In this document: piece by piece, positions 1,840-42,400 of the stretch
Layout: each line of letters opens with the position of its first letter
Position numbering within the stretch: the stretch's first letter is position 1
From: an uncultured Victivallales bacterium
Lineage (GTDB): Bacteria; Verrucomicrobiota; Lentisphaeria; Victivallales; UBA1829
Direction of reading: 5' to 3'
Assembly (NCBI GenBank): GCA_944390795.1
Contig: CALXRI010000025.1
Coordinates: 1 to 44,718 of the forward strand
DNA length: 44,718 nt
The notes under the pieces: generated by a model
Seen by the model: the letters and a program-made list of their open reading frames with translations, nothing else
The model's database searches: none
Told to the model about the DNA's origin: nothing
Translations under genes and position numbers: made by a program

Positions 1840-3213
1840 TTATTTTGAAGTCCCGCCGCGGAGAATTTCATCCATCACCTTGTATCCCAGCGGATTCCTA
1901 TGGACATGCCCGGATGCGGGAAGAATTGTCATATGCTTTTCCGTCGCGGCGGGAAGGTTGTTGAACGCGGCATATACGGATGTGGGAACACACGCCGTGT
2001 CATTCATGCAGGCCGTCATATAAACGGGCGCCTTGATGTACTTCGTAAAATTGACATTGTCGTAGTATTTCGACACTTCGGCGACTTTGGCATCCAGGGG
2101 TTTTCCGTCCTTGACAGCGAAAAGACGCGGCCAGCCGGACTGACGCCCAAGCAGATTGCCGGAATGGTCGCACATGGCAGGAGCGGCGGCAAGACAGAGG
2201 GAGACCTGCGGATCCAGCGCGGCGGCGACAATCGCCTGCGCGCCGCCCTGACTGAATCCAAATACAATCAGGTTTCTGCCATCCCATTCGGGAAGCGTCT
2301 TCACATAGTCCAGGGCACGGAGCACACGCAGATACATGTTTCTGAAATAGAATTTTTCACGGTCGTTCTTGTTCCGATGGAAATAAGCGCGCAGTTCGTT
2401 CGCATACAAGTGGTTGTAATATTCCTGAGGCTGTCCGTTGAGAATGCCGTGCGCATTGACGTCAAAGGAGATGGCATTGTTCCGAAGAGGTTTTCCGGCA
2501 GAGGCGACGCCGGCGCCGTGAAAGGAAATTACAGCAGGAAGGCTTTTCGGTTTGGCCCCGACGGGAATTGACAGATAACCGGACACGGGAACCTTGTCCA
2601 CGCAGTCGACCTTGACGTCATAGCATTTGAATCCGGCTGCGGCATGCCTGCCTCTCAAAGGGACTTCCGTCCTCACCGCCTTCACGGGAATTCCGGCCAG
2701 AAGCGCCTTCTGATCGTCCCAGAATTTTTTGAAATCCGCCGGTTCATCACATCCCGCCCTGATCTTTTCCGGTTCGACCATCGCACCGGCGCCCGCGGAA
2801 AATATTTTCCTTCCCTTCATCAAGGGTTTCCCATTCTCATCCAGCAGAGTGGCAAGAACCCGAATCCATCCGGGAGCATCCAGAGCGACCTCGCAGAGAT
2901 AGGGTTTCCCGTCCGTTTTCGTCACGATGTTCTTCTGAAGTCTGCCGTCGCCGGAAGAGATCGTATAACAGATCCGCTGTCCGGTCACCGGAGTTTTCGC
3001 CGGATCCAGGAGTGCGACCTGAAAAGAAGCTTTTTCTCCGACTTTGTAAATGTTTTTCTCCTGAAGGGGAGTGACACTGAGAGTCCAGCTCTCAAGGACA
3101 GCGCGGGGAACGTCGGCCGTGTCGGAGACTTCCGCCGCAAAACAGCAGCCCGCATACAGGAAAAATATACTGAACGCAGTCAGGAAGGTAATTTGCAAAA
3201 CGTTTCGCTTCAT
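1840..3213 (-). CDS. Secreted acetyl-xylan-esterase-like protein, second paralogue
   Basis: 457 aa. The start at 3213 follows AAAGGAGGACATC; the longer in-frame extension is rejected. The signal peptide (about 1-27) contains YAGC, a poor lipobox, and CFA-A, a reasonable signal peptidase I site, so unlike its neighbour it may be released rather than lipid-anchored. It lacks the long linker of the first copy. The Ig-like domain and AXE1-type hydrolase follow in the same order. The predicted triad is Ser321 (GFSQGG), Asp405 and His436. Long stretches, such as the LLGRQSGWPRLFA region, are the same in both proteins, so this is a gene duplication with divergence at the signal and nucleophile-elbow flanks. 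Probable substrate: acetylated hemicellulose or oligosaccharides (family inference). Confidence 0.85.
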   Translation of the reverse strand: MKRNVLQITFLTAFSIFFLYAGCCFAAEVSDTADVPRAVLESWTLSVTPLQEKNIYKVGEKASFQVALLDPAKTPVTGQRICYTISSGDGRLQKNIVTKTDGKPYLCEVALDAPGWIRVLATLLDENGKPLMKGRKIFSAGAGAMVEPEKIRAGCDEPADFKKFWDDQKALLAGIPVKAVRTEVPLRGRHAAAGFKCYDVKVDCVDKVPVSGYLSIPVGAKPKSLPAVISFHGAGVASAGKPLRNNAISFDVNAHGILNGQPQEYYNHLYANELRAYFHRNKNDREKFYFRNMYLRVLRALDYVKTLPEWDGRNLIVFGFSQGGAQAIVAAALDPQVSLCLAAAPAMCDHSGNLLGRQSGWPRLFAVKDGKPLDAKVAEVSKYYDNVNFTKYIKAPVYMTACMNDTACVPTSVYAAFNNLPAATEKHMTILPASGHVHRNPLGYKVMDEILRGGTSK

Positions 3214-3252
3214 GATGTCCTCCTTTGCAGTGAAAATCTGATCTGAAGAAGG

Positions 3253-3281
3253 AAAATAGCATGAATGAGCGAGGAAAACAA
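3253..3281 (-). promoter_or_regulatory. Probable sigma70 promoter for the second esterase gene
   Basis: Minus strand: TTGTTT, 17 nt, TATTTT, about 40 nt before the ATG at 3213. The spacing is ideal and each hexamer has mismatches. It resembles the element before the paralogue at 1685-1712. Confidence 0.45.
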
Positions 3282-3323
3282 GGATTGGAGCAATAAAAAT
3301 TTTCAGAAATCCGGGAAATGCGG

Positions 3324-3362
3324 AAAACGGAATCCTTCCGCGGAGACGGATGGTTCCGTTTT
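3324..3362 (-). terminator. Terminator after the isomerase/oxidoreductase pair
   Basis: AAAACGGAA (3324-3332) and TTCCGTTTT (3354-3362) form a 9-bp stem that can be extended inward by TCC/GGA. It lies just after the stop codon at 3390. The T run belongs to the stem and continues only briefly, so efficiency is uncertain. Confidence 0.55.
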
Positions 3363-3389
3363 CAAGCATCCTGAGGCAGATTCCTCCTG

Positions 3390-6743: not shown

Positions 6744-9623
6744 TCATTGCCAGCTATAGGTCCCTGCCCCGAGTCTGCCATGGATGCGTCGTTCCAGAAT
6801 CCAGGAAATCGGACTCAGGACTGTGGAAAGAGTTCCGAAGGGGAGCGTCCCTTTCAGAAGTTCCGCACGGACACGGAAATCGAATTCATTCGTATTCCAG
6901 TAATAGGATCCGTTGGCATTGAGCGCGACGACGCCGCCGTCGGATTTCAGGGAATCGGTGAAAAGCTCCCCCTCCCGGAGCCGGAACGAGCCGTCCAGTT
7001 CCGTAATGCTTCCCAAACTGCTTGTATTCCAGGCCTTTCCGAGGATTTTCAGCAGATCGCCGAGAACGGGAACGGACCAGAGGTCGTCGCCTTTGACCTG
7101 AAGATCGGCCGCGCCGTTCATCTGCAGCTGATTGAAGGCGTTGTAGTACAGTTCGGCATTCATGCCGGCTGTCACCAGAGCCTCCATGCGCGCCGGATCC
7201 GAAACGCCGACATGAAGCTCTCCGAGAATTTCCGGAAGGTGCGCACTTCTCAGCTTTGCATCGATCCTTCCCGTTTTCGTGTTGAAGTCGAATTCGTAAT
7301 CCATTCCGATTCTCCCGCCGCAGACTGTGGCGGCGGCATTCTGTATGAAAAGCTTGTTCCTTTCATATTTCACAGAGGAATCCACGTCACTGATCCGGAT
7401 TCCCTTCCAGAAGCACTTCCCGTTGCTGATTCCGGCGGAGAAACGCGTATTCATCACATTGCCGTAATCAATTACGCCGGATGCGGCAACCTTCATCCGG
7501 TCGGGAAAATCGATGAACTCGCTGCGCCAGTCAGGATAGAGGCAGCGCATGATGTCATTGCCCGCCATTGTGCTGTCGAAGGAGAAGTTCAGGATGCCGC
7601 CATGGCGGAGACGCACGCCGGGAACATTCTTCCGCGGAGGAGCGCTTTTATAGAAAACGCTTACCAGTGCCTGCCCGTCATCAGTTTGAAGCAGTGCGCC
7701 GGGGAGAACCAGCAGGCGGTCGGAATCAATCAGAAAACGCGTTGCTCCGTAATTGAAATGAATCCCGCGGTATTTGAAATCCGTCATGACCAGCGAGCCC
7801 GTGATGTAATAAGCGGGACGGTCTCCGTAATGAATCCGGATATCGGCGGAGGTTTCCACGAGATTGCCTTGCGCGGGCCATTGAATTCCGGAGGTCAGGC
7901 TTTCGATAAAGGCGCGCAGACGCGGCTCAAGCATCCGGATCGTTTTCCCGGGAGAGCCGCGGCAGACAAGCGAAGCGCTGACGAAGCGCTCATCCAGCAG
8001 GCATTTCATGTTTCCGGAAAGACGGAGGGAATCCTCTATCTGCGCCTCAATGCCATTGACGGCAAGCGTATTCGCGGTAAAGCTCATTTCCGCCGCGGCG
8101 TTCGCAAGCGCCACCCCGTGGCAGGTGACAGGTGGCAGCGTCAAGCGGATTTTTCCCTCGAACTCGGAAGTTCTCCAATCCGGTGAAACGACCTCTCCGG
8201 AAAAATGCAGCCGGTCGGAAGGATTTCTGAACCTGACATTTCCGTAAATGAAATCGGCAGCGGAACGGGAGAGAAAACGCCGCAATGCAGCGGGAGGCGT
8301 CTTTCCCTCAATCGCGGCCTTGAACGTATTGCCGGAAATCGTGAACAGGGACTTGATCTCATTGCCGCCGGGATCCGAACTGACGATCCGTCCGGAAATC
8401 AAATCATCGCCGATCTCCGTCGCCGCCGCAACATTTTTCAGGCGGATTCCATTGAAGACCATCGCTGGAATACGGAGCTCCGCCGTGCCGGAACATGCGC
8501 CGGACGAAAGAGAGAATTGGTGAAGAATTCCGTTGAAGGAGATCCGTTTCGCACTGGAAAGATCCAGTTTCCCCGCCATGGTCTCACGCACGGACTCACT
8601 GACGAAGAGAAGCATCTTATCCGGAGAACAGCTTCCGGAAAATGTCCCGCTTACACTGTTCAGTCCGCTGTCATAATGCCCCTGCGCCAGAAGATACTCC
8701 CCGTCTCCGAGCTCCAGGCGCAGATCCTTGAAAAGCAGTATTCCGTTTTTCAGGACAAGCTTTTCCCGGATTGCGCCGATCCGCAGATGTCCATACTGAA
8801 AATCCGGGAAGAACACGAGCGCCTCCGCGCTTGTTCTGTTGAAATCTCTGGCATCCAGGGAAAGACAGGCTGTGACGCTTGGAACGCCGTCAAAGGAGCG
8901 TTCGCCGAATTTGTCCAGAAGGCGGATTGCGGATTTCCGCAGGGAAAGCGGAACACCGGCAAGCATCCGCCGGTACCACCCCGCGGACGGATGCGGAACG
9001 GGCGCCGCAGCGGGAACAGCTGCAGAAGACTCCTTCTCCATCAGGCGGTCATGCAGCAGTTCGCTCACGTGCGCCCCCGCAAGATGCAGAAGATTATCCA
9101 CCGTGCCGGAGACGGTGAACTCAAAATCCCGGATTTTCCCCTTTGCCCGGTGAATCACGATCATGCCGGGGTCTCCGCCGATATCGGCATTCAGATCCGT
9201 GATGACGATCCGGTCTGTCTCCCCTTCCATTCCGGATTCGGGAAGCAGGGGAAGTTCCAGACGCCCTCCCGCGACCCGGATTCTCGCCGGCAGCAGGGTC
9301 CCGCTGAAAATCCGCCACGGCGCCGCGGAAAAACGCAGTTTCTCCGCATGAAGCGCGGGATATTCATAGGAATTCGGACCTGAAATTTCGACATCTTCAA
9401 AAACGATCCCTTTCAGAAAACCGGCCTTGCAGGAAGCGGCGCGGAAATGCAGTCCGCGGGAACGCAGCTGTTTCGAAATCCTCTCCATGACGCCGCCGGG
9501 AACGCCGGAATACTCAAACCATATGTCAAGGGCAAGAAAACATCCCGCTGCAAGAAGAAGCGTCAGGGAGGCAAACAGGTAAAACGCGGAGAAGCGTCTG
9601 ATGTATTTTGTGAAAATCGCCAT
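6744..9623 (-). CDS. Large AsmA-like / DUF3971-type envelope protein
   Basis: 959 aa. A single membrane helix near the N-terminus (about 14-34) is followed by a long beta-rich region and a C-terminal AsmA-like section. That section (GSFRLREGELFTDSL, then ELLKGTLPFGTL and a final GTYSW) is typical of AsmA_2-type tails. Related proteins are inner-membrane anchored, extend into the periplasm and are thought to carry lipids to, or help assemble, the outer membrane. The start at 9623 has only a weak ribosome site (AAAGAACGG). It is the last gene of a minus-strand cluster, 72 nt after the transglutaminase gene. A role in lipid transport is a family inference. Confidence 0.7.
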   Translation of the reverse strand: MAIFTKYIRRFSAFYLFASLTLLLAAGCFLALDIWFEYSGVPGGVMERISKQLRSRGLHFRAASCKAGFLKGIVFEDVEISGPNSYEYPALHAEKLRFSAAPWRIFSGTLLPARIRVAGGRLELPLLPESGMEGETDRIVITDLNADIGGDPGMIVIHRAKGKIRDFEFTVSGTVDNLLHLAGAHVSELLHDRLMEKESSAAVPAAAPVPHPSAGWYRRMLAGVPLSLRKSAIRLLDKFGERSFDGVPSVTACLSLDARDFNRTSAEALVFFPDFQYGHLRIGAIREKLVLKNGILLFKDLRLELGDGEYLLAQGHYDSGLNSVSGTFSGSCSPDKMLLFVSESVRETMAGKLDLSSAKRISFNGILHQFSLSSGACSGTAELRIPAMVFNGIRLKNVAAATEIGDDLISGRIVSSDPGGNEIKSLFTISGNTFKAAIEGKTPPAALRRFLSRSAADFIYGNVRFRNPSDRLHFSGEVVSPDWRTSEFEGKIRLTLPPVTCHGVALANAAAEMSFTANTLAVNGIEAQIEDSLRLSGNMKCLLDERFVSASLVCRGSPGKTIRMLEPRLRAFIESLTSGIQWPAQGNLVETSADIRIHYGDRPAYYITGSLVMTDFKYRGIHFNYGATRFLIDSDRLLVLPGALLQTDDGQALVSVFYKSAPPRKNVPGVRLRHGGILNFSFDSTMAGNDIMRCLYPDWRSEFIDFPDRMKVAASGVIDYGNVMNTRFSAGISNGKCFWKGIRISDVDSSVKYERNKLFIQNAAATVCGGRIGMDYEFDFNTKTGRIDAKLRSAHLPEILGELHVGVSDPARMEALVTAGMNAELYYNAFNQLQMNGAADLQVKGDDLWSVPVLGDLLKILGKAWNTSSLGSITELDGSFRLREGELFTDSLKSDGGVVALNANGSYYWNTNEFDFRVRAELLKGTLPFGTLSTVLSPISWILERRIHGRLGAGTYSWQ

Positions 9624-32325: not shown

Positions 32326-33255
32326 TTAAAACACCCCCGGGGATATTTCCACCTGCCAGCCGCATTCCTTCAGGAGTTTTTCAAAACGGCGTCCGTATTC
32401 CACATAATTTTCATAACGGACATCCGCTCCTTCCGGCAGTTTCAGGCTTTCCTGCGCTTCCGCACCGAGATGTGGCTCAATGGAAAAGCCGCCGTCATAC
32501 CCCGTGCGGCGCAGATCCGTTACGATTGCGCGGACATCGCCGATGCCGTCGCCGGCAAAAGTGAATCTCATTTTCGCTGCGGAGCCGTCGGGTTCAGGTA
32601 GCGCGATACTGTCTTTGATGTGTACATAAATGATGTGTTCCCGGACGTTCCGGTAAAATTCCCATGAGGACTGAAGCGGATAGGGCGCCTGCCCGATGTG
32701 CCTGTATGTGAATGTGGGGTTGCCCGTATCGAAGATCAGTTTCAGATTCGGGTGGTTGACCTTTTCCAGCAGTTTCAGAGTGTGCAGATGGGAAAGTCCG
32801 CCGTAATTCGTGCAGTTTTCGTGTCCGTAAATGACTCCATACTCCGCACACATTTCCACAAAACGGTGGACATGGCGAAAGATGATTTCTTCCAGTTCCG
32901 GGCTGTCCGGCACTTCATTTTCCGTCTGCCGGAAACTCATGCCGCGGAGGAGCCTGATCTTTAGTTTCCGCATTCGGGGGAGAACACGGAGCAGTTCGTC
33001 ATAGGAGGCTTTGATATCCGCCTCACAGCGCGGGGATTTCCCGCCGTTGGCGACGGCGCTGCCGTAGCAGTTGATGGCGATCCCGGCATTATGGAGTTGT
33101 TCCATCACCGTTTCGAATTCTTCATCGGTCAGTGTTGCAAGATTTTTGCCGTTGATTCCCCGGCTTTCCATGAATTTCCAACCGAGTTCCCGCGTTACTT
33201 TGAGCTGCACCGCAAAATCGCTTCCGGCTTCATCTGTGAAACCTGTTAAAAACAT
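32326..33255 (-). CDS. Sugar phosphate isomerase/epimerase-like TIM barrel
   Basis: 309 aa. Start at 33255 after GGAGGAGCAGACA. AP-endonuclease-2/xylose-isomerase-type barrel: YGHENCTN (metal Glu), LIFDTGNPTF (metal Asp), IYVHIKDS (His) and GGFSIEPHLG (Glu) line up with the usual metal-site positions. Last gene of the eight-gene operon, 18 bp after an oxidoreductase gene. It probably isomerises or dehydrates the product of that dehydrogenase. Substrate unknown. Confidence 0.82.
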   Translation of the reverse strand: MFLTGFTDEAGSDFAVQLKVTRELGWKFMESRGINGKNLATLTDEEFETVMEQLHNAGIAINCYGSAVANGGKSPRCEADIKASYDELLRVLPRMRKLKIRLLRGMSFRQTENEVPDSPELEEIIFRHVHRFVEMCAEYGVIYGHENCTNYGGLSHLHTLKLLEKVNHPNLKLIFDTGNPTFTYRHIGQAPYPLQSSWEFYRNVREHIIYVHIKDSIALPEPDGSAAKMRFTFAGDGIGDVRAIVTDLRRTGYDGGFSIEPHLGAEAQESLKLPEGADVRYENYVEYGRRFEKLLKECGWQVEISPGVF

Positions 33256-33273: not shown

Positions 33274-34449
33274 TCAGAATGATTTTTCAAATCCGGCGCT
33301 GCTGCTTTTGCGGGTCTGCCGCGGAATGCGCGGTTTTGAGTTTTTTACCAGAGAATCCAGAAGTTCCGCATATTCTGCCGCATCCATCGGCAGCGTGACC
33401 GTCTTGTCTTTCAAGCCGGAGAGCAGCATGGCGTTGCCCAGCTCCAGACTGCGGATGCCTTCCGCCATCGGCGCGATCAACCCGACTCCGTTGCGAATCG
33501 CCTCCGCCACATTTTCAATGACGATGCGATGAGGGGGGCGCGTTTCCGGTTCAAACGGGATATCGCATTCCCAGTATGGCGGAGATCCGAAATCCGCCGA
33601 GGCGGTTCTGGAGTAAACGGAGGTTTCCACTTCATTGCGGTTGAACATGATTTTATTTTTTTCCAGAATCACGCGTCCTCGTTCGCAGGCGATTTCCAGA
33701 CGGTTTGTTCCCGGTGCCTCACCGGTCGTCGTAATGAAATTCCCGACCATGCCGTCGGCATATTCCAGATATGCATTCACTTCATCTTCGACCTCAATTT
33801 CGTGGTATTTTCCCAGCGAGACGGCGGCACGGACACGGACGGGCATCCCGAAAAACCATTGCATCAGGTCCAGTTGGTGCGGACACTGATTCAAAAGCAC
33901 TCCTCCGCCTTCACCGGACCAGGACGCACGCCAGTCGCCGGAATCGTAATAGGGCTGGCTGCGGAACCAGTCGGTAATGGTCCAGTTGATCCGGCGGATT
34001 CTGCCGAGTTCGCCGCTGTCAATGAGCTGTTTGAGCCGCCTGTGCGCGGGCATGGTCCGCTGGTTGAACATCAGACTCCTTACCAGTTCCGGGTGTTTTT
34101 CCGATTCGCGTATCAGGCGCTCGGCTTCCGCCTTGTGGACTGCAATGGGTTTTTCCACGATCACATGTTTGCCGTGCTCCATTGCCAGAATCGCCAGCTT
34201 CGGGTGGAAATAGTGCGGAACGGCAATGATCATCGCCTCCACTTCCGGATCGCTGCAGATCTCCTCTGCGGCGGCGTAACAGCGGATGTGCTTGCGCGTG
34301 TCCGGGGCGATCCGGTCGAAGGCTGCCGGATTTATGTCACAGACCGCAACGAGTTCGGTGTTATGAAGTTCTTCGATATGACGGACATGCACCGAGCCCA
34401 TATTGCCGATGCCGATAATCCCGAAACGGACTTTTCCCGTATTCATCAT
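33274..34449 (-). CDS. Gfo/Idh/MocA-family oxidoreductase
   Basis: 391 aa. The first of two adjacent ATGs (34449) is used, after AAAGGAAC. Rossmann motif GIGNMG (13-18), EKP at 99-101, and a full C-terminal domain with GGGVLLNQCPHQLDLMQWFFG containing the catalytic-region histidine. A basic, serine-rich tail (KPRIPRQTRKSSS) follows. Family members of this length act on glycosides or hexose derivatives with bound NAD. Within the operon it probably oxidises a sugar set free by the glycosidase-like proteins. Confidence 0.87.
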   Translation of the reverse strand: MMNTGKVRFGIIGIGNMGSVHVRHIEELHNTELVAVCDINPAAFDRIAPDTRKHIRCYAAAEEICSDPEVEAMIIAVPHYFHPKLAILAMEHGKHVIVEKPIAVHKAEAERLIRESEKHPELVRSLMFNQRTMPAHRRLKQLIDSGELGRIRRINWTITDWFRSQPYYDSGDWRASWSGEGGGVLLNQCPHQLDLMQWFFGMPVRVRAAVSLGKYHEIEVEDEVNAYLEYADGMVGNFITTTGEAPGTNRLEIACERGRVILEKNKIMFNRNEVETSVYSRTASADFGSPPYWECDIPFEPETRPPHRIVIENVAEAIRNGVGLIAPMAEGIRSLELGNAMLLSGLKDKTVTLPMDAAEYAELLDSLVKNSKPRIPRQTRKSSSAGFEKSF

Positions 34450-34480: not shown

Positions 34481-36271
34481 TCAGGATAAACGTTTCAATT
34501 CTTTTTTCAGGAAGTCTTCTTTTGCGAGAATAGATTCCGCATTGAAAAAACGGGTGAAAGCTTCGCCGTGATAACCGAGTCGCGGGTCTTTTTCGACCCG
34601 AGGCAGCGCTTTGTGCAGAGTCTCCAGCTCCGCAAGGATGATGCGGCGCATCTCATGAACTTTTTCATCGGACCACTCTTTCCGCAGACGGTAGGCGCGG
34701 TAGGCATTCTCCGCACTTCGCCACAGACAGCCGCAGACAATGGCGTTGCCCAGTTCTTTTCTGTCGTCGGGACAACTTGCCAGCGCCTCCTCCATCAGCT
34801 CTGCGCCGATCTCCCAGATCACCCCCATTTTGCCGAGCGAGGCAATGATTTCATCAAGGGAATATTCGTGTCCGGGCATGGTGCAGCTTTGGGAAAGGTC
34901 GTCTCCCCGGAAAGACGGCAGGTAGGAACATCCCGCGGGAGTTCCGCGCAGAGGTTCCGCCCGATAGATTTCCGCATAAGAGAGAGCGTGGGAATGCACG
35001 CCGTTATAGAGAAACGGGATGGCAAACGGAATATGTTTCATTGCCTTTTCAAAGATATCCCATGCACGAAGCAGGAGTTCGCTTCGGCAGCCGGGAAAAT
35101 AATCCTCCGCGAATGCGCGCATCGCCTCCGCCTTGCCGTCCGGACGTTTCCGCCGGAGAAAGTAATTGAATCCTTGTGTGTTGGCGCTGAACATGTTGCC
35201 GAAGTTCCAGCACCCCATATAGCCGATGTCGGGATGTTTTCTGTGCCAGTCCGCTTTCCGGTAGATGCTGTTCATCAGAGGCAGGTTCACGACGGTCGCA
35301 AGCTCATGCGTCGTGCCGAGCTGAAGCTTCGTCATGCGGCGCATGCCGAGCTCCTTCGCGACTTCAAGCACGCCGAGGCAGAGTTCGGACGGTCCGGAAT
35401 AGGTCAGAGAGTATTCGTCGATTTTATGGTCCGGATGCTCCGCGAGGTCCATTCTGCCGCCGCGTTCAAATCCTGCCATCAGAATGATGTCGCGCGGCAG
35501 AAGTTCCAGCAGCGGACGGCAGGGGGAAGGAAGCCAGCCGGACCATCCCCAGTTCCATGCAATGATTTCGATTCTGTCCGAATGTCTGCGGATCCCGTCA
35601 TGGACGAGATTCACGAGTTCCGCCGCGACTTCCCACGGCTCGCGTTTTCCGCAGCGCGGGCATTCGATGAGGGGAGCCCACGGCGTAACATCCTTTTTTC
35701 TGCGGTGACTGTAACAATGTCCCGGATATTCGCTGGCTGTAATGAGAATCACGCCGCCGAGCTCCGGCAGTTTTTCCGCCAGCTGCGCCGAAGCGTCCGC
35801 AACCCACTGTTTGACGGCCGGGACGGAAGTGCAGAGGCAGATCATGTCGATCAGCTGTCCCTTATTGGCGTCCAGCACCTGTTCGGTCGCCTTCTCCCAT
35901 TGTCCTGCGCATTCGGAATGACGGCTCCAGAATTCGCGGTTTTCCGCCGCCACGCTCCTTACCGGCTGAAAGTAGAGAAATACCCTGATCCCGTATTTTG
36001 CCGCCCGCCCGATCAGAGCCGAAAGATTCCTGATATGCCGTTCCGCATGTCCTCCGAATTCCGGGAAGGGATCCAGATGCGTGATATTGGCGAGAACCGC
36101 GTGGAGCCAGATTGCGTTGAATCCGTTTTCCGCAATTTCCCGCAGGACATCATCCGTATAACAGTCAACTGCCGTAATCGTCTCATCCGTGAAATCATCG
36201 GGTTGCAGAGAGTTCAAGCCGCCGAATCTGCTGTATGGCGAACGCCAGATCCGATACTGATTTTCATTCAT
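34481..36271 (-). CDS. Glycoside-hydrolase-like TIM-barrel protein with a Cys pair
   Basis: 596 aa from the second Met (36271), which has GGAAG six bases upstream; a Met two codons earlier is also possible. No signal peptide. The N-terminal 380 residues look like a TIM-barrel glycosidase (NGFNAIWLHAVLANITHL, GIRVFLYFQPVRS, LGGVILITASEYPGHCYS, IEIIAWNWGWSGW). A CPRCGK pair at about 208-213 may bind metal. The remainder is helical. Members of this kind sit beside DUF4838 proteins in sugar loci of Lentisphaerota and Planctomycetes (recollection, not searched). It is probably a cytoplasmic glycosidase on imported oligosaccharide; the catalytic acids were not identified with confidence. Confidence 0.6.
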   Translation of the reverse strand: MNENQYRIWRSPYSRFGGLNSLQPDDFTDETITAVDCYTDDVLREIAENGFNAIWLHAVLANITHLDPFPEFGGHAERHIRNLSALIGRAAKYGIRVFLYFQPVRSVAAENREFWSRHSECAGQWEKATEQVLDANKGQLIDMICLCTSVPAVKQWVADASAQLAEKLPELGGVILITASEYPGHCYSHRRKKDVTPWAPLIECPRCGKREPWEVAAELVNLVHDGIRRHSDRIEIIAWNWGWSGWLPSPCRPLLELLPRDIILMAGFERGGRMDLAEHPDHKIDEYSLTYSGPSELCLGVLEVAKELGMRRMTKLQLGTTHELATVVNLPLMNSIYRKADWHRKHPDIGYMGCWNFGNMFSANTQGFNYFLRRKRPDGKAEAMRAFAEDYFPGCRSELLLRAWDIFEKAMKHIPFAIPFLYNGVHSHALSYAEIYRAEPLRGTPAGCSYLPSFRGDDLSQSCTMPGHEYSLDEIIASLGKMGVIWEIGAELMEEALASCPDDRKELGNAIVCGCLWRSAENAYRAYRLRKEWSDEKVHEMRRIILAELETLHKALPRVEKDPRLGYHGEAFTRFFNAESILAKEDFLKKELKRLS

Positions 36272-36277
36272 TTTCAT

Positions 36278-36394: not shown

Positions 36395-36916
36395 TTACCT
36401 TGTGACTGTGCATGAGACGTTTTCAATCGATTTGTCATTGCCGTCGATGTAGAAGATCAGATAATATTCCTTCGGCAGATACGGGATACGGAACGTATAA
36501 TCTCTGCAGGTGTCCGTGAGATCGTATTTCGGCAGGTCTTCCACCCTGCGGTGGTTTGTGCGCGGGCTGTATCCTTCCCAGCTCCATGTCCGTATTCCGA
36601 TTTTTCCCGTGCCTTTCGCGCGGATCACAAGATTGTAGAAAGAGCCTTCTTCCAAATCCTTCGGAACGGGAAATCCGGTAGCCAGAACTCCTTTCGCATA
36701 AATCTCATTGCCTTTTCCGGTTTTGATGATCTTCCAGTCCACGGTATTGCCGTAAAGTTCCCACTTTTTCGGGAACATGGTCTCCTCTCCGCCGATTTTC
36801 TGTTTCGCAAGTTCCGCGAAATTGCCGTTGGCAATCAGATCTTTCGGTGTATTCTGCGCGGAGAGAGTGAAGATTGCCGCAAGAATGGCGATTCCGGAAA
36901 GCAGTTTGTTGTTCAT
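36395..36916 (-). CDS. Secreted stand-alone copy of the C-terminal domain of the DUF4838 enzyme
   Basis: 173 aa. Start at 36916 with AAAGGATTTCTCTC before ATG. Signal peptide about 1-19 (ending LSA-Q). Residues 30-173 repeat the last 144 residues of the upstream DUF4838 protein almost exactly (NGNFAELAKQKIGG, KKWELYGNT, EEGSFYNLVIRAKGTGKIG). The beta-rich pattern suggests a carbohydrate-binding-module-like jelly roll. It arose from a 421-bp duplication (36410-36830 against 36967-37387). A different signal peptide is joined on, so it is a new secreted protein and not a mere fragment. Probable role: glycan binding outside the cytoplasm. Confidence 0.75.
   Translation of the reverse strand: MNNKLLSGIAILAAIFTLSAQNTPKDLIANGNFAELAKQKIGGEETMFPKKWELYGNTVDWKIIKTGKGNEIYAKGVLATGFPVPKDLEEGSFYNLVIRAKGTGKIGIRTWSWEGYSPRTNHRRVEDLPKYDLTDTCRDYTFRIPYLPKEYYLIFYIDGNDKSIENVSCTVTR
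36410..36830 (-). repeat. 421-bp direct repeat, copy 1 (partner 36967-37387)
   Basis: Aligned by eye at a constant offset of 557 bp without gaps; about 16 differences, so about 96% identity. The 3'-coding half has almost none and the 5'-coding half holds most of them, a pattern that may reflect local gene conversion. Confidence 0.92.
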
Positions 36917-36932
36917 GAGAGAAATCCTTTCT

Positions 36933-36948
36933 GACAAACTTGTTTGTC
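36933..36948. promoter_or_regulatory. Palindrome GACAAAC-TT-GTTTGTC, possible LacI-type site
   Basis: Perfect 7-bp arms in the 35-bp gap before the start at 36916. It shares GACAAAC with the two sites near the lacI gene (42424-42437, 42805-42818) but has two more bases in the centre. It could instead be an mRNA hairpin just ahead of the ribosome site. Confidence 0.4.
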
Positions 36949-36951
36949 GCT

Positions 36952-39741
36952 TTATTTTACAATGGAGCATGAGACGTTTTCAATCGTTTTGTCATTGCCG
37001 TCGATGTAGAAGATCAGATAATATTCCTTCGGCAGATACGGGATACGGAACGTATAATCTCTGCAGGTGTCCGTGAGATCGTATTTCGGCAGGTCTTCCA
37101 CCCTGCGGTGGTTTGTGCGCGGGCTGTATCCTTCCCAGCTCCATGTCCGTATTCCGATTTTTCCCGTGCCTTTCGCGCGGATCACCAGATTGTAAAAAGA
37201 GCCTTCTTCCAAATCCTTCGGAACGGAAATTCCGGTAGCCAGAACGCCTTTCGCATAGATTTCATTGCCTTTGGCAGTTTTGATGATCTTCCAGTCCCCG
37301 GTATTGCCGTAAAGTTCCCACTTCTTCGGGAACATGGTCTCCTGTCCGCCGATTTTCTGTTTTGCAAGTTCGGCGAAATTGCCGTTGACGATATAATTCC
37401 TGCTGAAAACCGCATTCCGGAAGAGTTGCACCTGATGCGGCGGGACTCCGTCCATGGAACTCCATTCCCGTTCATCGGGAGGCTGAAGATTGGTGACGGT
37501 CCGCATAAAATGCATCCGCCATGGCCGATCGCCTTTGATCTCCGCGCGCATCGTTTCCAGCGGCACTCGGATTTCATACTGGCGGATCGTCCCGTTCCGC
37601 AGGACTTTCACTTCCGCGTTCGACGTGAAGGATTTGTCAAACGCCTGTCCGATGCAGGCGGCATCGTAAACCATCCCCGCCGTATTGATGATCAGATGAT
37701 AAAACTTACCGGAATCGCCGCCAGGAACAATCTGGATTTCAATGGAATCATCTTTCCAGACCGGGCCGTCAGCCGTCTTCACCGCGGCCGACGGAGACCG
37801 CCAGGCAAGCGATTCATCCGCATTGACCGCAAAATAGAGATTGGATTCGTCATAGGCGATCCGGACCTCCGTTTTGGCACGTGCCGGCTGTTTGTGCGCG
37901 GATTCCAGAAACCCTCCGGCAGGCTGAGCCCTGAGCCAGGTCTGTTCCTCAAATTTCCCGTCAATGACAATCCTGTCAACGCGTTTTTCAGGCAGCAGTT
38001 CCTTTTTCACGGCAAGCTGTTTTTTCAATTCCGCCGCGGGTTCCTGCCAGAATTGCCGCAGCAGCCTGCGATCCAGTGCAACCCGCTGACGGATCAGATC
38101 GGAATCCGCCATGGATTCCGCCTGTTTCAGCATTTCAAGCAGTTTTTCTTCCGCGCCTGGAACGTTCAGGCAGAAAGCCGAACGGTTCTGTCCATTGAGT
38201 ATGGAATGCCCGGGGGCATTTTCCCAGAGTTGTTTCCGGAAATCATGGTATTTTTTCATGGCCGGAGCCGCTTTGCCGTAATAAATGCCATAAGCTTCCG
38301 CCAACAGGTCATTGACATCCAGACTGGTGTCCCAGAGCAGTTTTGCCGCCGTGTAGATTGTCTGCCATTCGGAAAGAAATGTATCGGACGCATAGTTTGT
38401 GTAAGCGTTTTTCTGCGGACAAGTCCCGTAGGCGGGAGAGACTTCGTCAAGCCAGATTGACGCACCGTTTCCGCGAAGCGTTTTCAGATCGTCTGCCAGC
38501 ACAAACTCAAACGGTGCATAATAAGACCGTGCGTCATGCCGGTAATCGTAAATGCCGAAGGACGGACAACGCTTTTTCCATTCCAGCATTTCCTTGTAAA
38601 GTTCGCGGTTGCAGGCCGTTTTTTCCGAAAAATCATGGACATAACATTTCTGATGCGTGGCATACAACAAGTGAGAGTTTTCCGATTCATAGCGGATCGC
38701 GGGATCCTCCGGCAGATTCCGGTAATTCCAGTAAGCCCAGAAGCGCAGATGCGCTTTCGGAAATTCCTTCAGGATGCGGTCACCGACGTTTTTGCAGTAA
38801 CGGTGAAACAGGGTGGAGATAGAAAATTTGCCGTTGTAAGTGCCCATTTCCCGGCAGGCAGCACACTCACAGAACGCGTTGGAATCATCTTCGCCGATGA
38901 AGTCGATAACCGTTTCCGGTGCTTTCCGCAGCAGACCGATATAATAATCCGCCATCCGCTTCTGCACTTCGGGGTGTGCAAGACAACGGTTGACGCGTCC
39001 TTCCGCGGCCCGTTTCCCGTTTTTAAGTGCAAAGTATTCCGGATGTTCCTTCAACAGCGCTCCCGGAATGACCCGTCTCATTCCTTCATGCCCGCCGGCA
39101 GCGGAGAATGCGCCGCGTTCCCGGCGGTACCTCTCTTTCTGTTCCTGTGTGAAACGGGGCATTTGCCAGAGCCCCGGGTTGATATTCATACGGTTGCGTG
39201 CCATCCAGTCATAGGTGGAGATGAAGTCCGTGGAAGTTCCGCAGACACTGAGTTCCCGGTAACGGAAAGAGGCTTCCTGAAAAAATTCCCCGTTCGGGAT
39301 CGTGATGTCTTTCCGGACCGGGTAATGTTCGCCCAGTCTGCCGGGGAAGAACCATCGTACGCCGAGATGTTTTTCGATGAATGCGTATGTGCCGAACAAC
39401 GCGGCGCGCGGGCAGTTGCCCGCAATCAGAATCCGGTCGTCTGCAATCTGAAATGCGAAGGCGTCATTTTTTGCCTCCGCCAACTGTTTTTTCAGTTCAG
39501 AATTCAATCCGGGAAGTTCCTGCGCCGTTCCGATTCTGATGATCTTGCCGTTTTTCTTTACAGGCGAGCCGGTAACTTTCCTGAGAGAATCCCGCAGCTC
39601 TCTCTCTGCCAGTTGTTCCGGCGCGTTTTTTCCGGTTTCCAACGTTACTGCTGCCTGACCGTTTTCCGCCAGTTTGAAATCCGCATGTGAAACTGCCGCG
39701 AGACATAACAGCAGTGCGGTTATCTTTTTACAAATCTGCAT
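36952..39741 (-). CDS. Secreted DUF4838 glycan-degrading-type enzyme with CBM9-like domain
   Basis: 929 aa. Start at 39741 with AAAGGATTTTT before ATG. Signal peptide about 1-20 (ending SHA). An N-terminal glucuronidase-like beta/alpha domain (about 25-150: NAPEQLAERELRDSLRKVTG, then RAALFGTYAFIEKHLGVRWFFPG) precedes the DUF4838 TIM-barrel region (about 150-590) with FIGEDDSNAFCECAACREM, its Cys trio typical of the family. A CBM9-like domain follows (about 600-785: VDRIVIDGKFEEQTW, then VRIAYDESNLYFAV). The C-terminal domain (786-929) is duplicated as the next gene. It probably works outside the cytoplasm on a plant or host glycan. The activity is not proven for the family. Confidence 0.8.
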   Translation of the reverse strand: MQICKKITALLLCLAAVSHADFKLAENGQAAVTLETGKNAPEQLAERELRDSLRKVTGSPVKKNGKIIRIGTAQELPGLNSELKKQLAEAKNDAFAFQIADDRILIAGNCPRAALFGTYAFIEKHLGVRWFFPGRLGEHYPVRKDITIPNGEFFQEASFRYRELSVCGTSTDFISTYDWMARNRMNINPGLWQMPRFTQEQKERYRRERGAFSAAGGHEGMRRVIPGALLKEHPEYFALKNGKRAAEGRVNRCLAHPEVQKRMADYYIGLLRKAPETVIDFIGEDDSNAFCECAACREMGTYNGKFSISTLFHRYCKNVGDRILKEFPKAHLRFWAYWNYRNLPEDPAIRYESENSHLLYATHQKCYVHDFSEKTACNRELYKEMLEWKKRCPSFGIYDYRHDARSYYAPFEFVLADDLKTLRGNGASIWLDEVSPAYGTCPQKNAYTNYASDTFLSEWQTIYTAAKLLWDTSLDVNDLLAEAYGIYYGKAAPAMKKYHDFRKQLWENAPGHSILNGQNRSAFCLNVPGAEEKLLEMLKQAESMADSDLIRQRVALDRRLLRQFWQEPAAELKKQLAVKKELLPEKRVDRIVIDGKFEEQTWLRAQPAGGFLESAHKQPARAKTEVRIAYDESNLYFAVNADESLAWRSPSAAVKTADGPVWKDDSIEIQIVPGGDSGKFYHLIINTAGMVYDAACIGQAFDKSFTSNAEVKVLRNGTIRQYEIRVPLETMRAEIKGDRPWRMHFMRTVTNLQPPDEREWSSMDGVPPHQVQLFRNAVFSRNYIVNGNFAELAKQKIGGQETMFPKKWELYGNTGDWKIIKTAKGNEIYAKGVLATGISVPKDLEEGSFYNLVIRAKGTGKIGIRTWSWEGYSPRTNHRRVEDLPKYDLTDTCRDYTFRIPYLPKEYYLIFYIDGNDKTIENVSCSIVK
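36967..37387 (-). repeat. 421-bp direct repeat, copy 2 (partner 36410-36830)
   Basis: This copy encodes residues about 786-929 of the DUF4838 protein and is probably the original, as it is part of the longer gene. Confidence 0.92.
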
Positions 39742-39767: not shown

Positions 39768-40589
39768 TCAGAGTTCCGTTTCACCGACTTCACGGAGCCA
39801 CGAACGAAGCCAGTCTGTGGCTGGACCGCCGATGTCCGCGCAGCAGTTCGAGCAGAAAATGATTCCCTCGGTTTTGTTCTCCAGCAGCAGCCGGAGGAAG
39901 GTCTCGCATTCAAATTTCAGCTCATCAACAGACAATGGGCGTCCCGCCCCGTAATTCCAGATATAGCAGCCGGTCATGCGGCGTTTTCCCGCGGTGCGTT
40001 CTATCATGCGATCCAGATCATGTGCCAGAATGTCATGTTCGGCAGGCGTCTGCATGTTCCAGTAAGTGATTACGTCAAATTCTTTGAGATATTCGTCAAT
40101 GGGGTCCTCCAGCTGTCTTTTGTACCAGACTACGTAAAAGTCCAGTTTTCGAGCTGCTTCATGTAATTTTTCCCGCATGGAACGAATGTCATCCACGGAC
40201 AAACGTGCCCATGCGCCGTTCCGCATCTGCGGGCGGATGAAGAAATCATCCAGAACCGCCCCGGTAATATTGGGAAAAAGCGATACCTGGCGGAGAACTT
40301 CCTCCAAATCCGTTTGATGGTCGTTGCGTTTGGAACCGGAATCACCGATTGCCGACCAGACTACGCGCGACACATTTTTCATCTTTTCCGATTCTTCATC
40401 GAATGGCGGGCATGGACTGCCGCACATGACCACCCGGAAAATATTGGGTATTCCCAGATATTCTGCTCCCTCCACGGGGCCGAGACGGTTTCCGTCCGGC
40501 AGTTTCCATATCATGTTGCCGGGAGAGCGCTGATGCGACATGGCATCCTGTCCCCAGAGCCACAGACAGTCTTTGACTTTTTTCTTCAT
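39768..40589 (-). CDS. Unrecognised cytoplasmic protein, TIM-barrel-like
   Basis: 273 aa. Start at 40589 with a weak AGGGG ribosome site; the long in-frame extension overlaps the pseudopilin gene and is rejected. No signal peptide or membrane segment. Alternating strand/helix segments (GIPNIFRVVMCG, NITGAVLDDFFI, LDFYVVWYKRQL, EFDVITYWNM, TGCYIWNYGAG, TEGIIFCSNCC) fit a glycosidase-like barrel. Asp-Asp in VLDDFF lies at a strand end, where a catalytic acid would be expected. Its place in the operon, between pseudopilin and DUF4838 genes, suggests sugar breakdown. I do not know a named family for it. Confidence 0.5.
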   Translation of the reverse strand: MKKKVKDCLWLWGQDAMSHQRSPGNMIWKLPDGNRLGPVEGAEYLGIPNIFRVVMCGSPCPPFDEESEKMKNVSRVVWSAIGDSGSKRNDHQTDLEEVLRQVSLFPNITGAVLDDFFIRPQMRNGAWARLSVDDIRSMREKLHEAARKLDFYVVWYKRQLEDPIDEYLKEFDVITYWNMQTPAEHDILAHDLDRMIERTAGKRRMTGCYIWNYGAGRPLSVDELKFECETFLRLLLENKTEGIIFCSNCCADIGGPATDWLRSWLREVGETEL

Positions 40590-40638
40590 TTTCAGAACCC
40601 CTGCAGTTTTAGAGTGACGACCGTCACAATATGTTAAG

Positions 40639-41364
40639 TTACCACCAATTGCTATCTGAATCTTTATTCGGGTGCCCGTTGTTTGGCCACCAGCGGATGT
40701 GGTCATAAGACCATCCTGAATCTTTGTAGCTTCGCATCGGTTGTCCCCATTTGCTGAAAACAAGATTTTGCGCACTGCCGTCATAGAAAAGGAAATTATC
40801 GCTCTTGCCATGCAGCATATAATAATGGTTGTCGGTAAAGTCAATGCCGTCGTGCAACTGGCAGAGCATATTGGGATGTCTGATTGACCCCGGCTTGATG
40901 AAGACGCCTTTTCCGGTTGGGTCATTGTTGGGAACTTCGCTCCAACTCCAGTCGCATTTCTGGATTACGGCTGTTGCTGCGCATCTTTTTGAGTGTCCGT
41001 AATAAGAGATATTTCCTTTATAGTTGCCTGCGATGCTGTGTGCACTTTTATACATGGTTGCCGATGTGCAGATGAAGTTTTTTGTAAAGGTTTTGATAAG
41101 GCCTGTAGCCTGGAAAAGCATGGGCAGTGAAGTCGAATAACGGTTGCCGGTATAGGACTCGGATGGCAGCCACCCCGCATAGGAATCATAATACAGAGTC
41201 GAGAGTGTTGCGATCTGTTTTAATTTTGACAGGCAGTCCACCTGATATGCCTTGTCTCTTGCGCTTTTCAGTGCCGGAAGCAGCATTGCCGCCAGAATGG
41301 CGATGATCGCTATTACGATCAGCAATTCGATCAATGTGAAAGTATTCCTTTCCGCTTTTTTCAT
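40639..41364 (-). CDS. Type II pseudopilin-like protein (prepilin-type leader)
   Basis: 241 aa. GGAGGAAAA just before ATG. The leader KKAERNTFTLIELLIVIAII is a textbook prepilin site: cut after a small or polar residue before Phe9, with Glu at position +5 and then a hydrophobic helix (to about 31). A globular domain follows and ends Trp-rich (SDSNWW). Such proteins are handled by a prepilin peptidase and built into type II secretion or pilus-like fibres. It stands 19 bp after the LacI gene inside a sugar operon, so it is probably a sugar-induced surface or secretion component. Confidence 0.88.
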   Translation of the reverse strand: MKKAERNTFTLIELLIVIAIIAILAAMLLPALKSARDKAYQVDCLSKLKQIATLSTLYYDSYAGWLPSESYTGNRYSTSLPMLFQATGLIKTFTKNFICTSATMYKSAHSIAGNYKGNISYYGHSKRCAATAVIQKCDWSWSEVPNNDPTGKGVFIKPGSIRHPNMLCQLHDGIDFTDNHYYMLHGKSDNFLFYDGSAQNLVFSKWGQPMRSYKDSGWSYDHIRWWPNNGHPNKDSDSNWW

Positions 41365-41383
41365 TTTTCCTCCGTTTTTATTT

Positions 41384-42400
41384 TTAATTCAGTTTTGCCA
41401 CTGATTCCCGTTTGATCAGCTCTGCCGGAACACGATAGGTGCCGTCCGGCTCCTGCGGCAGATCAAGCTTGCCGTGAATCAGGAGACGAAATGCATTACT
41501 GCCGAGATTTTCATGCATCTCATTGACGGATGTCAGAGGGGAAAGAGCGTTCTCTCCGGAATCCGTATATCCGAAGCCGGTCGTGGAGACATCTTCCGGG
41601 ACACGCAGTCCCTTTCGGATCGCCATGCGCTGGACCTGCATCGCCATGCCGTCGCCGATGCAGAAAAATGCAGTCGGGCGTATTTCCGGCGGACGGTCCA
41701 GCATTTCATGAAGTTTCGGCGTAATGTCCGCTTCGCAGATCATGAGGCTGAATTCCGGTTCAATTCCCGATTCCTTCAGCCCCGCCAGATACCCGTTGTA
41801 TTTTTCCGTCATATAGTGCCAGAACTGATATTCGCCGCAGACCAGTGCGATTCTGCTGTGTCCCATTGCGGCAAGATACTTGACTGTTTCACGGGAGATT
41901 TCATAGTTGCCGGATGCGACCGCCGGGAATTCGCCGTGTCCGGTTTCATACACAAAGACCAGATTCAGACCATACTGACGGCATAGAAAAGCCGTTTCCT
42001 CCCGCTTGCCGTTTTTCGTGCTCATCGAAATGACATGTTTGATCTGGCTGGAAAGGATCTCCTCGATGCAGGACGGCAGGTCGTTGTCGGTATAAGTCTT
42101 GAGCGCGTAATTGCTTGCCCCCGCGGCATCCAGAATTCCGTACAGCACCCGCGTGGCGCTCTGGCTGTGCCCGATACTGTAGTCGCCGCTGTTGATGATC
42201 GCAATCGTGGCGTTGACTCCTGTGCGCATGGCGGCGGCGAACTGATTGCGGCGGTATCCGAGTTTACGCGCGGCATCCAGAATTCTCTGGCGCGTTTCCG
42301 GGCGCAGTTTCAGTGCTCTCGGATGATTGCCGAGAGTCCGTGAAGCGGAGCCGATGTCGACTCCCGCCAGTTTTGCAACATCTTTCAATGTCGCCGCCAT
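41384..42400 (-). CDS. LacI-family transcriptional regulator
   Basis: 338 aa. GGAGGAGGCGGT stands before the ATG at 42400. Helix-turn-helix VAKLAGVDIGSASRTLGNH and hinge (KLGYRRNQFAAAMRTG), then a periplasmic-binding-protein-like ligand domain (about 62-335) with VSTTGFGYTD in place of the common VSVxGFDD. First gene of the operon running to 32326. A strong promoter with an operator-like 14-mer just after the start point indicates that it represses itself and the genes that follow. Effector unknown, most likely a sugar from the glycan broken down by the operon. Confidence 0.93.
   Translation of the reverse strand: MAATLKDVAKLAGVDIGSASRTLGNHPRALKLRPETRQRILDAARKLGYRRNQFAAAMRTGVNATIAIINSGDYSIGHSQSATRVLYGILDAAGASNYALKTYTDNDLPSCIEEILSSQIKHVISMSTKNGKREETAFLCRQYGLNLVFVYETGHGEFPAVASGNYEISRETVKYLAAMGHSRIALVCGEYQFWHYMTEKYNGYLAGLKESGIEPEFSLMICEADITPKLHEMLDRPPEIRPTAFFCIGDGMAMQVQRMAIRKGLRVPEDVSTTGFGYTDSGENALSPLTSVNEMHENLGSNAFRLLIHGKLDLPQEPDGTYRVPAELIKRESVAKLN

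Follow-up and report, generated by a model that had tools for sequence, protein, structure and literature searches.

The window analysed here is a 44,718-nt stretch of the genome of an uncultured Victivallales bacterium, a gut member of the Lentisphaeria (G000), and window coordinates refer to this whole stretch. On its minus strand it carries a gene for a 929-aa DUF4838 enzyme (D) and, just downstream, a gene for a 173-aa secreted single-domain protein (SA), which have a 421-bp stretch (the block) in common (Table 1). The two genes lie on the same strand and likely form one operon, as a preliminary description of this DNA had proposed. That description also took the block for the product of a recent partial gene duplication. 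Comparison with a sister species indicates instead that the duplication is older than the species and that the block was homogenised later by gene conversion.

Self-BLAST of the region gave one ungapped match of 421 bp, with 405 of the 421 positions identical and 16 different. The two copies lie in the same orientation, 557 bp apart. No third copy of the block domain was found in G000 by protein search; an SA of another type on contig 24 is treated separately below. The extent of the repeat and the number of differences are exactly those described before, and the second copy indeed forms the C-terminal end of the DUF4838 enzyme, whose last domain had been recognised there. The differences had also been said to cluster, and 15 of the 16 fall in the half encoding the N-terminal part of the domain. 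The longest run of identity between SA and D covers 198 bp and encodes about residues 97 to 162, including the loop TWSWEGYSPRTNHRR; under random placement of the 16 differences, such a run has a P of about 0.0005 (~0.05%).

D matched PF16126 with 128.3 bits against a gathering score of 26.6 (E value of 4.7e-37). Its model showed a GH67N-like domain and a TIM barrel near GH115, GH84 and GH67, followed by CBM9 and the C-terminal domain, and a PDB sequence search with D matched no chain. By inspection, SA begins with a signal peptide of its own (MNNKLLSGIAILAAIFTLSA-Q), as had been noted. Its confident model, with a predicted local distance difference test score (pLDDT) of 86, is a beta-sandwich, and the best structural matches were the hyaluronan-binding module 4d0q (Z of 13.5), CBM61 (13.2), a porphyran carbohydrate-binding module (CBM; 12.6) and CBM4 (12.5). 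The predicted fold is that of known beta-sandwich CBMs and would be compatible with glycan binding by the SA domain. None of 13 members of the domain matched any Pfam family, and SA had no NCBIfam match.

Age of the duplication and homogenisation of the block

A search of relatives recovered a D-SA pair in G003, a sister species in the same genus (g1; contig CASEFP010000190.1, uncultured Lentisphaeria bacterium). The G000 and G003 assemblies, both drafts, are independent and differ in their bases, and the gene order is the same in both: a 275-aa protein, D, SA, a 598-aa protein, an oxidoreductase and a TIM-barrel protein. The signal-peptide regions of the two SA genes are identical at 72 of 78 bases, and their 3' tail is also common to both. 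When SA and D of the two genomes were compared as four sequences, each informative site favoured one of three possible groupings. Outside the block, all 22 informative sites grouped the orthologs and none the paralogs. Judged from these sequences, the orthologous flanks, the 22 sites and the shared neighbours show that the duplication predates the split of G000 and G003, and "recent" describes the sequence identity only. The pair in the sister species also makes an assembly artefact confined to one genome unlikely. The copy is real, in agreement with the preliminary description, while the recent origin given to it does not stand. That description further had the free domain arising from the enzyme. 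Derivation of SA from D, rather than of D's domain from SA, is plausible, with about 30 enzyme C-terminal copies against few free ones.

Inside the block the pattern was the opposite: all 13 informative sites grouped SA with D of its own genome, with no site grouping the orthologs and none crossing. Seven of the 13 are synonymous, and parallel selection on the proteins thus does not explain them. SA and D differ at 16 positions in G000 and at 29 in G003, the two SA copies at 45 and the two D copies at 25, the G003 pair thus being slightly more different than the D orthologs. The positions of D-D and SA-SA differences coincide at 14 sites, compared to about 3.6 expected had the copies evolved apart, and none of 20000 simulations reached 13. 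The synonymous divergence (dS) between SA and D within the block was 0.12 in G000, whereas it was 0.305 for the orthologous D bodies and 0.245 for the SA signal-peptide regions. Identical SA/D runs extend to 198 bp in G000 and 88 bp in G003, compared to about 19 bp expected from codon usage. The D orthologs differ at 12 sites within the 198-bp stretch where SA and D do not differ at all (Fisher p of 0.001), indicating that this run is not simply immutable sequence. Given an old duplication and block sites that all group within genomes, these patterns show homogenisation of the block by gene conversion after the species split. Conversion had been proposed beforehand for the uneven spread of the differences, and both the site patterns and the 198-bp run support it. 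In G000 they suggest that conversion took place at least twice, first in the 5' part and later over the 198-bp run.

A second genus, g8, also has D-SA pairs, found in three of its genomes (G010, G017 and G023). Searches covering 137 genomes from the order and 198 from the class gave no further SA of this type (type I), and G020 has a related D without an adjacent SA. In the domain tree, the g1 SA grouped with the g1 D (support 100/98) and the g8 SA with the g8 D (97/95). The g8 SAs group together (87% for G010 versus G023), a single clade of all type I SAs was weakly rejected (approximately unbiased test, p of 0.034), and both g1 copies carry a mixture of the residues that tell g8 SA from g8 D. 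The SAs of the two genera may have separate origins, or conversion may have erased their common history.

Independent duplications, with SA arising separately in G000, G003 and g8 and each resembling its own D, would agree with this grouping by genus and with the rejection of a single clade. For G000 and G003, however, the signal peptide, linker, tail and position would all need to have been acquired twice, and we regard this explanation as improbable. Less probable still is a single recent partial duplication in G000 alone, joined to a new signal peptide: the 96% identity and the adjacency of the copies would fit it, but the orthologous signal peptide and tail of SA in G003, together with the grouping of the flank sites, rule it out. 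Strong purifying or parallel selection without any conversion can claim a conserved domain and a loop motif common to all type I members, but it is contradicted by the paralog pattern at synonymous sites and by D orthologs that differ exactly where SA and D are identical, leaving it a similarly negligible chance. The weakest candidate, an assembly artefact favoured by a draft metagenome-assembled genome and an exact 198-bp repeat, is ruled out as a general explanation by the independent G003 assembly, which has the same structure with different bases, and by the pairs in g8.

Other locus types and neighbouring genes

Free copies of the domain beside DUF4838 enzymes were found in three locus types in all. 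In the second type (G020), an SA lies upstream of a different D, and its nearest relative is the C-terminal domain of that same D (59% identity, support 98/92). The third type is present in G001 and on contig 24 of G000, where the orthologous SAs are 62 to 66% identical to each other but share only about 33% identity with the D next to the SA of G001. The full-length D of G001 is absent from G000 between conserved neighbours while the SA is kept (L052, 5714-5853 versus L059, 4878-7709), leaving a companion without its enzyme. The loop TWSWEGYxPRTNHRR is kept across the type I members and sits in the youngest tract of the block; types II and III have another motif.

In G023, SA and D are identical over 39 bp at the loop motif (P below 1/5000). 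This run ends at a contig end, so that the conversion it suggests in G023 may be an assembly effect. The contig indeed stops inside the identical stretch (L022, 4234-4272), as if the assembly had broken at the shared tract. No significant identical run was found in the G010, G017 and G020b pairs. Two further candidates for free domains, G010:C27 and G023:C106, proved to be a frameshifted D and a truncated D, respectively. In G010, a DUF4838 gene is split by a frameshift into frames of 713 and 228 aa (L053, 3710-6498).

The genes around D and SA in the window are listed in Table 1. A 385-aa protein of the same cluster (39768-40925, minus strand) has no significant Pfam or NCBIfam match and, like the 598-aa protein, is conserved in G003. 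In several genomes, DUF4838 genes again have a pseudopilin-like secreted protein next to them (window 40639-42400, L022, L023 and L024), often together with a LacI-type regulator. Elsewhere in the window, two acetyl-xylan-esterase-like (AXE1) genes form a tandem pair with 76 to 80% DNA identity (157-1671 and 1840-3369, minus strand), and a 959-aa open reading frame without a Pfam match (6744-9623, minus strand) adjoins genes for a transglutaminase-core protein and a DUF58 protein.

Table 1. Features of the D-SA locus and its surroundings in the window
Feature	Position	Strand	Basis
Sugar isomerase/epimerase-like TIM barrel (AP_endonuc_2), same cluster	32326-33255	-	Pfam, G003 order
GFO/IDH/MocA oxidoreductase, same cluster	33274-34449	-	Pfam, G003 order
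598-aa protein, next gene downstream of SA, same order in G003	34481-36277	-	No significant Pfam/NCBIfam match
SA, 173 aa; signal peptide about residues 1-20, domain 24-172	36395-36916	-	Protein search, model; signal peptide by inspection
Block copy in SA	36410-36830	-	BLAST match, site patterns
198-bp SA/D-identical run, the longest in G000, taken as the youngest conversion tract	36431-36628	-	BLAST, placement test
Spacer, 35 bp, stop of D to ATG of SA; AAAGGA ribosome-binding-like site	36917-36951	-	Sequence
D, 929 aa; signal peptide, GH67N-like, DUF4838 TIM barrel (Pfam 136-500), CBM9 (593-738), C-terminal domain (782-929)	36952-39741	-	Pfam, models
Block copy in D (C-terminal domain)	36967-37387	-	BLAST match, site patterns
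Pseudopilin-like secreted protein (N_methyl), upstream of D	40639-41364	-	Pfam, NCBIfam
LacI-family regulator, head of cluster; promoter-like site 42477-42449	41384-42400	-	

Proposed role of SA and relation to known systems

We propose that, before the split of G000 and G003, a partial duplication put the C-terminal beta-sandwich domain of D behind a signal peptide of its own, as a separate gene just downstream. Homologous recombination between the near-identical stretches 557 bp apart would be the agent that has since repeatedly overwritten one copy with the other, over the domain only; the signal peptide and final codons of SA have remained orthologous. SA may serve as a secreted, free-standing module that binds the same carbohydrate ligand as the C-terminal domain of D. 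It could coat or open the substrate, or hold it at the cell envelope where D works, and through conversion the binding sites of the two proteins would stay alike. Taken as a whole, this reading of an old duplication, domain-limited conversion and a free module matched to the enzyme appears probable to us. The origin part, duplication and conversion, is very likely; the functional part is more tentative, at slightly less than an even chance.

Several observations weigh against the proposal. Strong homogenisation is seen in two species only, and the g8 SAs are just 49 to 59% identical to their own D with saturated dS, having mostly drifted apart, so that matching of SA to D is not essential everywhere. 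The 198-bp exact repeat exceeds the usual short-read k-mers, and in draft genomes assembly could distort this tract. Seven of the 13 paralog-grouping sites fall outside this tract with the same outcome, and the conclusion of conversion is thus independent of it. Likeness of fold within the beta-sandwich class, finally, is no proof of sugar binding.

The main rival on the side of function treats conversion as a neutral consequence of having two repeats close together, and SA as dispensable or as a decoy that competes for substrate with the enzyme instead of helping it. Recombination occurs readily between close direct repeats, and homogenisation that is strong in g1 and nearly absent in g8 would suit this explanation. 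However, in both genera SA evolves under purifying selection: the ratio of nonsynonymous to synonymous divergence (dN/dS) between SAs is about 0.15 in g1 and 0.14 in g8 (G010-G023), indicating that the protein is maintained by selection. One type III SA, moreover, persists without a neighbouring full-length D. We consider a neutral or decoy role unlikely, though it deserves more weight than any rival concerning origin.

The proposed companion role of SA could extend to a family. DUF4838 enzymes of this Lentisphaeria family may repeatedly have spun off free C-terminal domains, at three or more types of locus, sometimes upstream and sometimes downstream of the enzyme; the domain would be an undescribed CBM family, and conversion would be favoured as it ties the specificity of the free module to that of the enzyme. 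Each enzyme would then have a tuned soluble partner. This is a speculative extension, and we doubt that it holds. The data do indicate that about 30 DUF4838-type proteins of the Lentisphaeria carry an undescribed CBM-like domain, and their companions may set or report the glycan specificity of the enzymes.

A DUF4838 protein has been annotated as GH163 (PMC9870897), and one GH163 enzyme cuts GlcNAc-beta-1,2-Man in complex N-glycans (PMC10154615). D resembles the DUF4838/GH163 group by its PF16126 match and adds CBM9 and the new C-terminal domain. SA has the same predicted fold as CBM61, CBM4, CBM16, CBM22 and 4d0q over about 125 to 135 residues (Z of 12 to 13.5), but with a sequence identity of just 8 to 16%, and it belongs to none of the families in Pfam or NCBIfam. 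Free-standing CBMs or lectins are known from genes next to those of glycoside hydrolases, and SA is likewise a secreted single domain, here predicted to bind, beside an enzyme. Unlike them, it is paralogous to a domain of the enzyme itself and kept near-identical through conversion. In the literature searched, with partial coverage, we found no earlier report of a D-SA pair or of conversion restricted to a domain that an enzyme and a free secreted protein have in common.

The locus offers a clean natural case of such confinement, and it cautions that high identity of a partial copy to its parent gene need not mean recent duplication, the age being set by the flanks and not by the block. Concerted evolution by gene conversion is known, though rare, among duplicated genes of prokaryotes (tufA/tufB, mtrA and others; PMC6053082). 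There, as here, the paralogs of one genome are homogenised, including at synonymous sites. However, whole genes are involved in those cases, whereas here it is one domain only, common to a multidomain enzyme and a free protein. The domain-limited conversion of D and SA is thus a variant of known concerted evolution.
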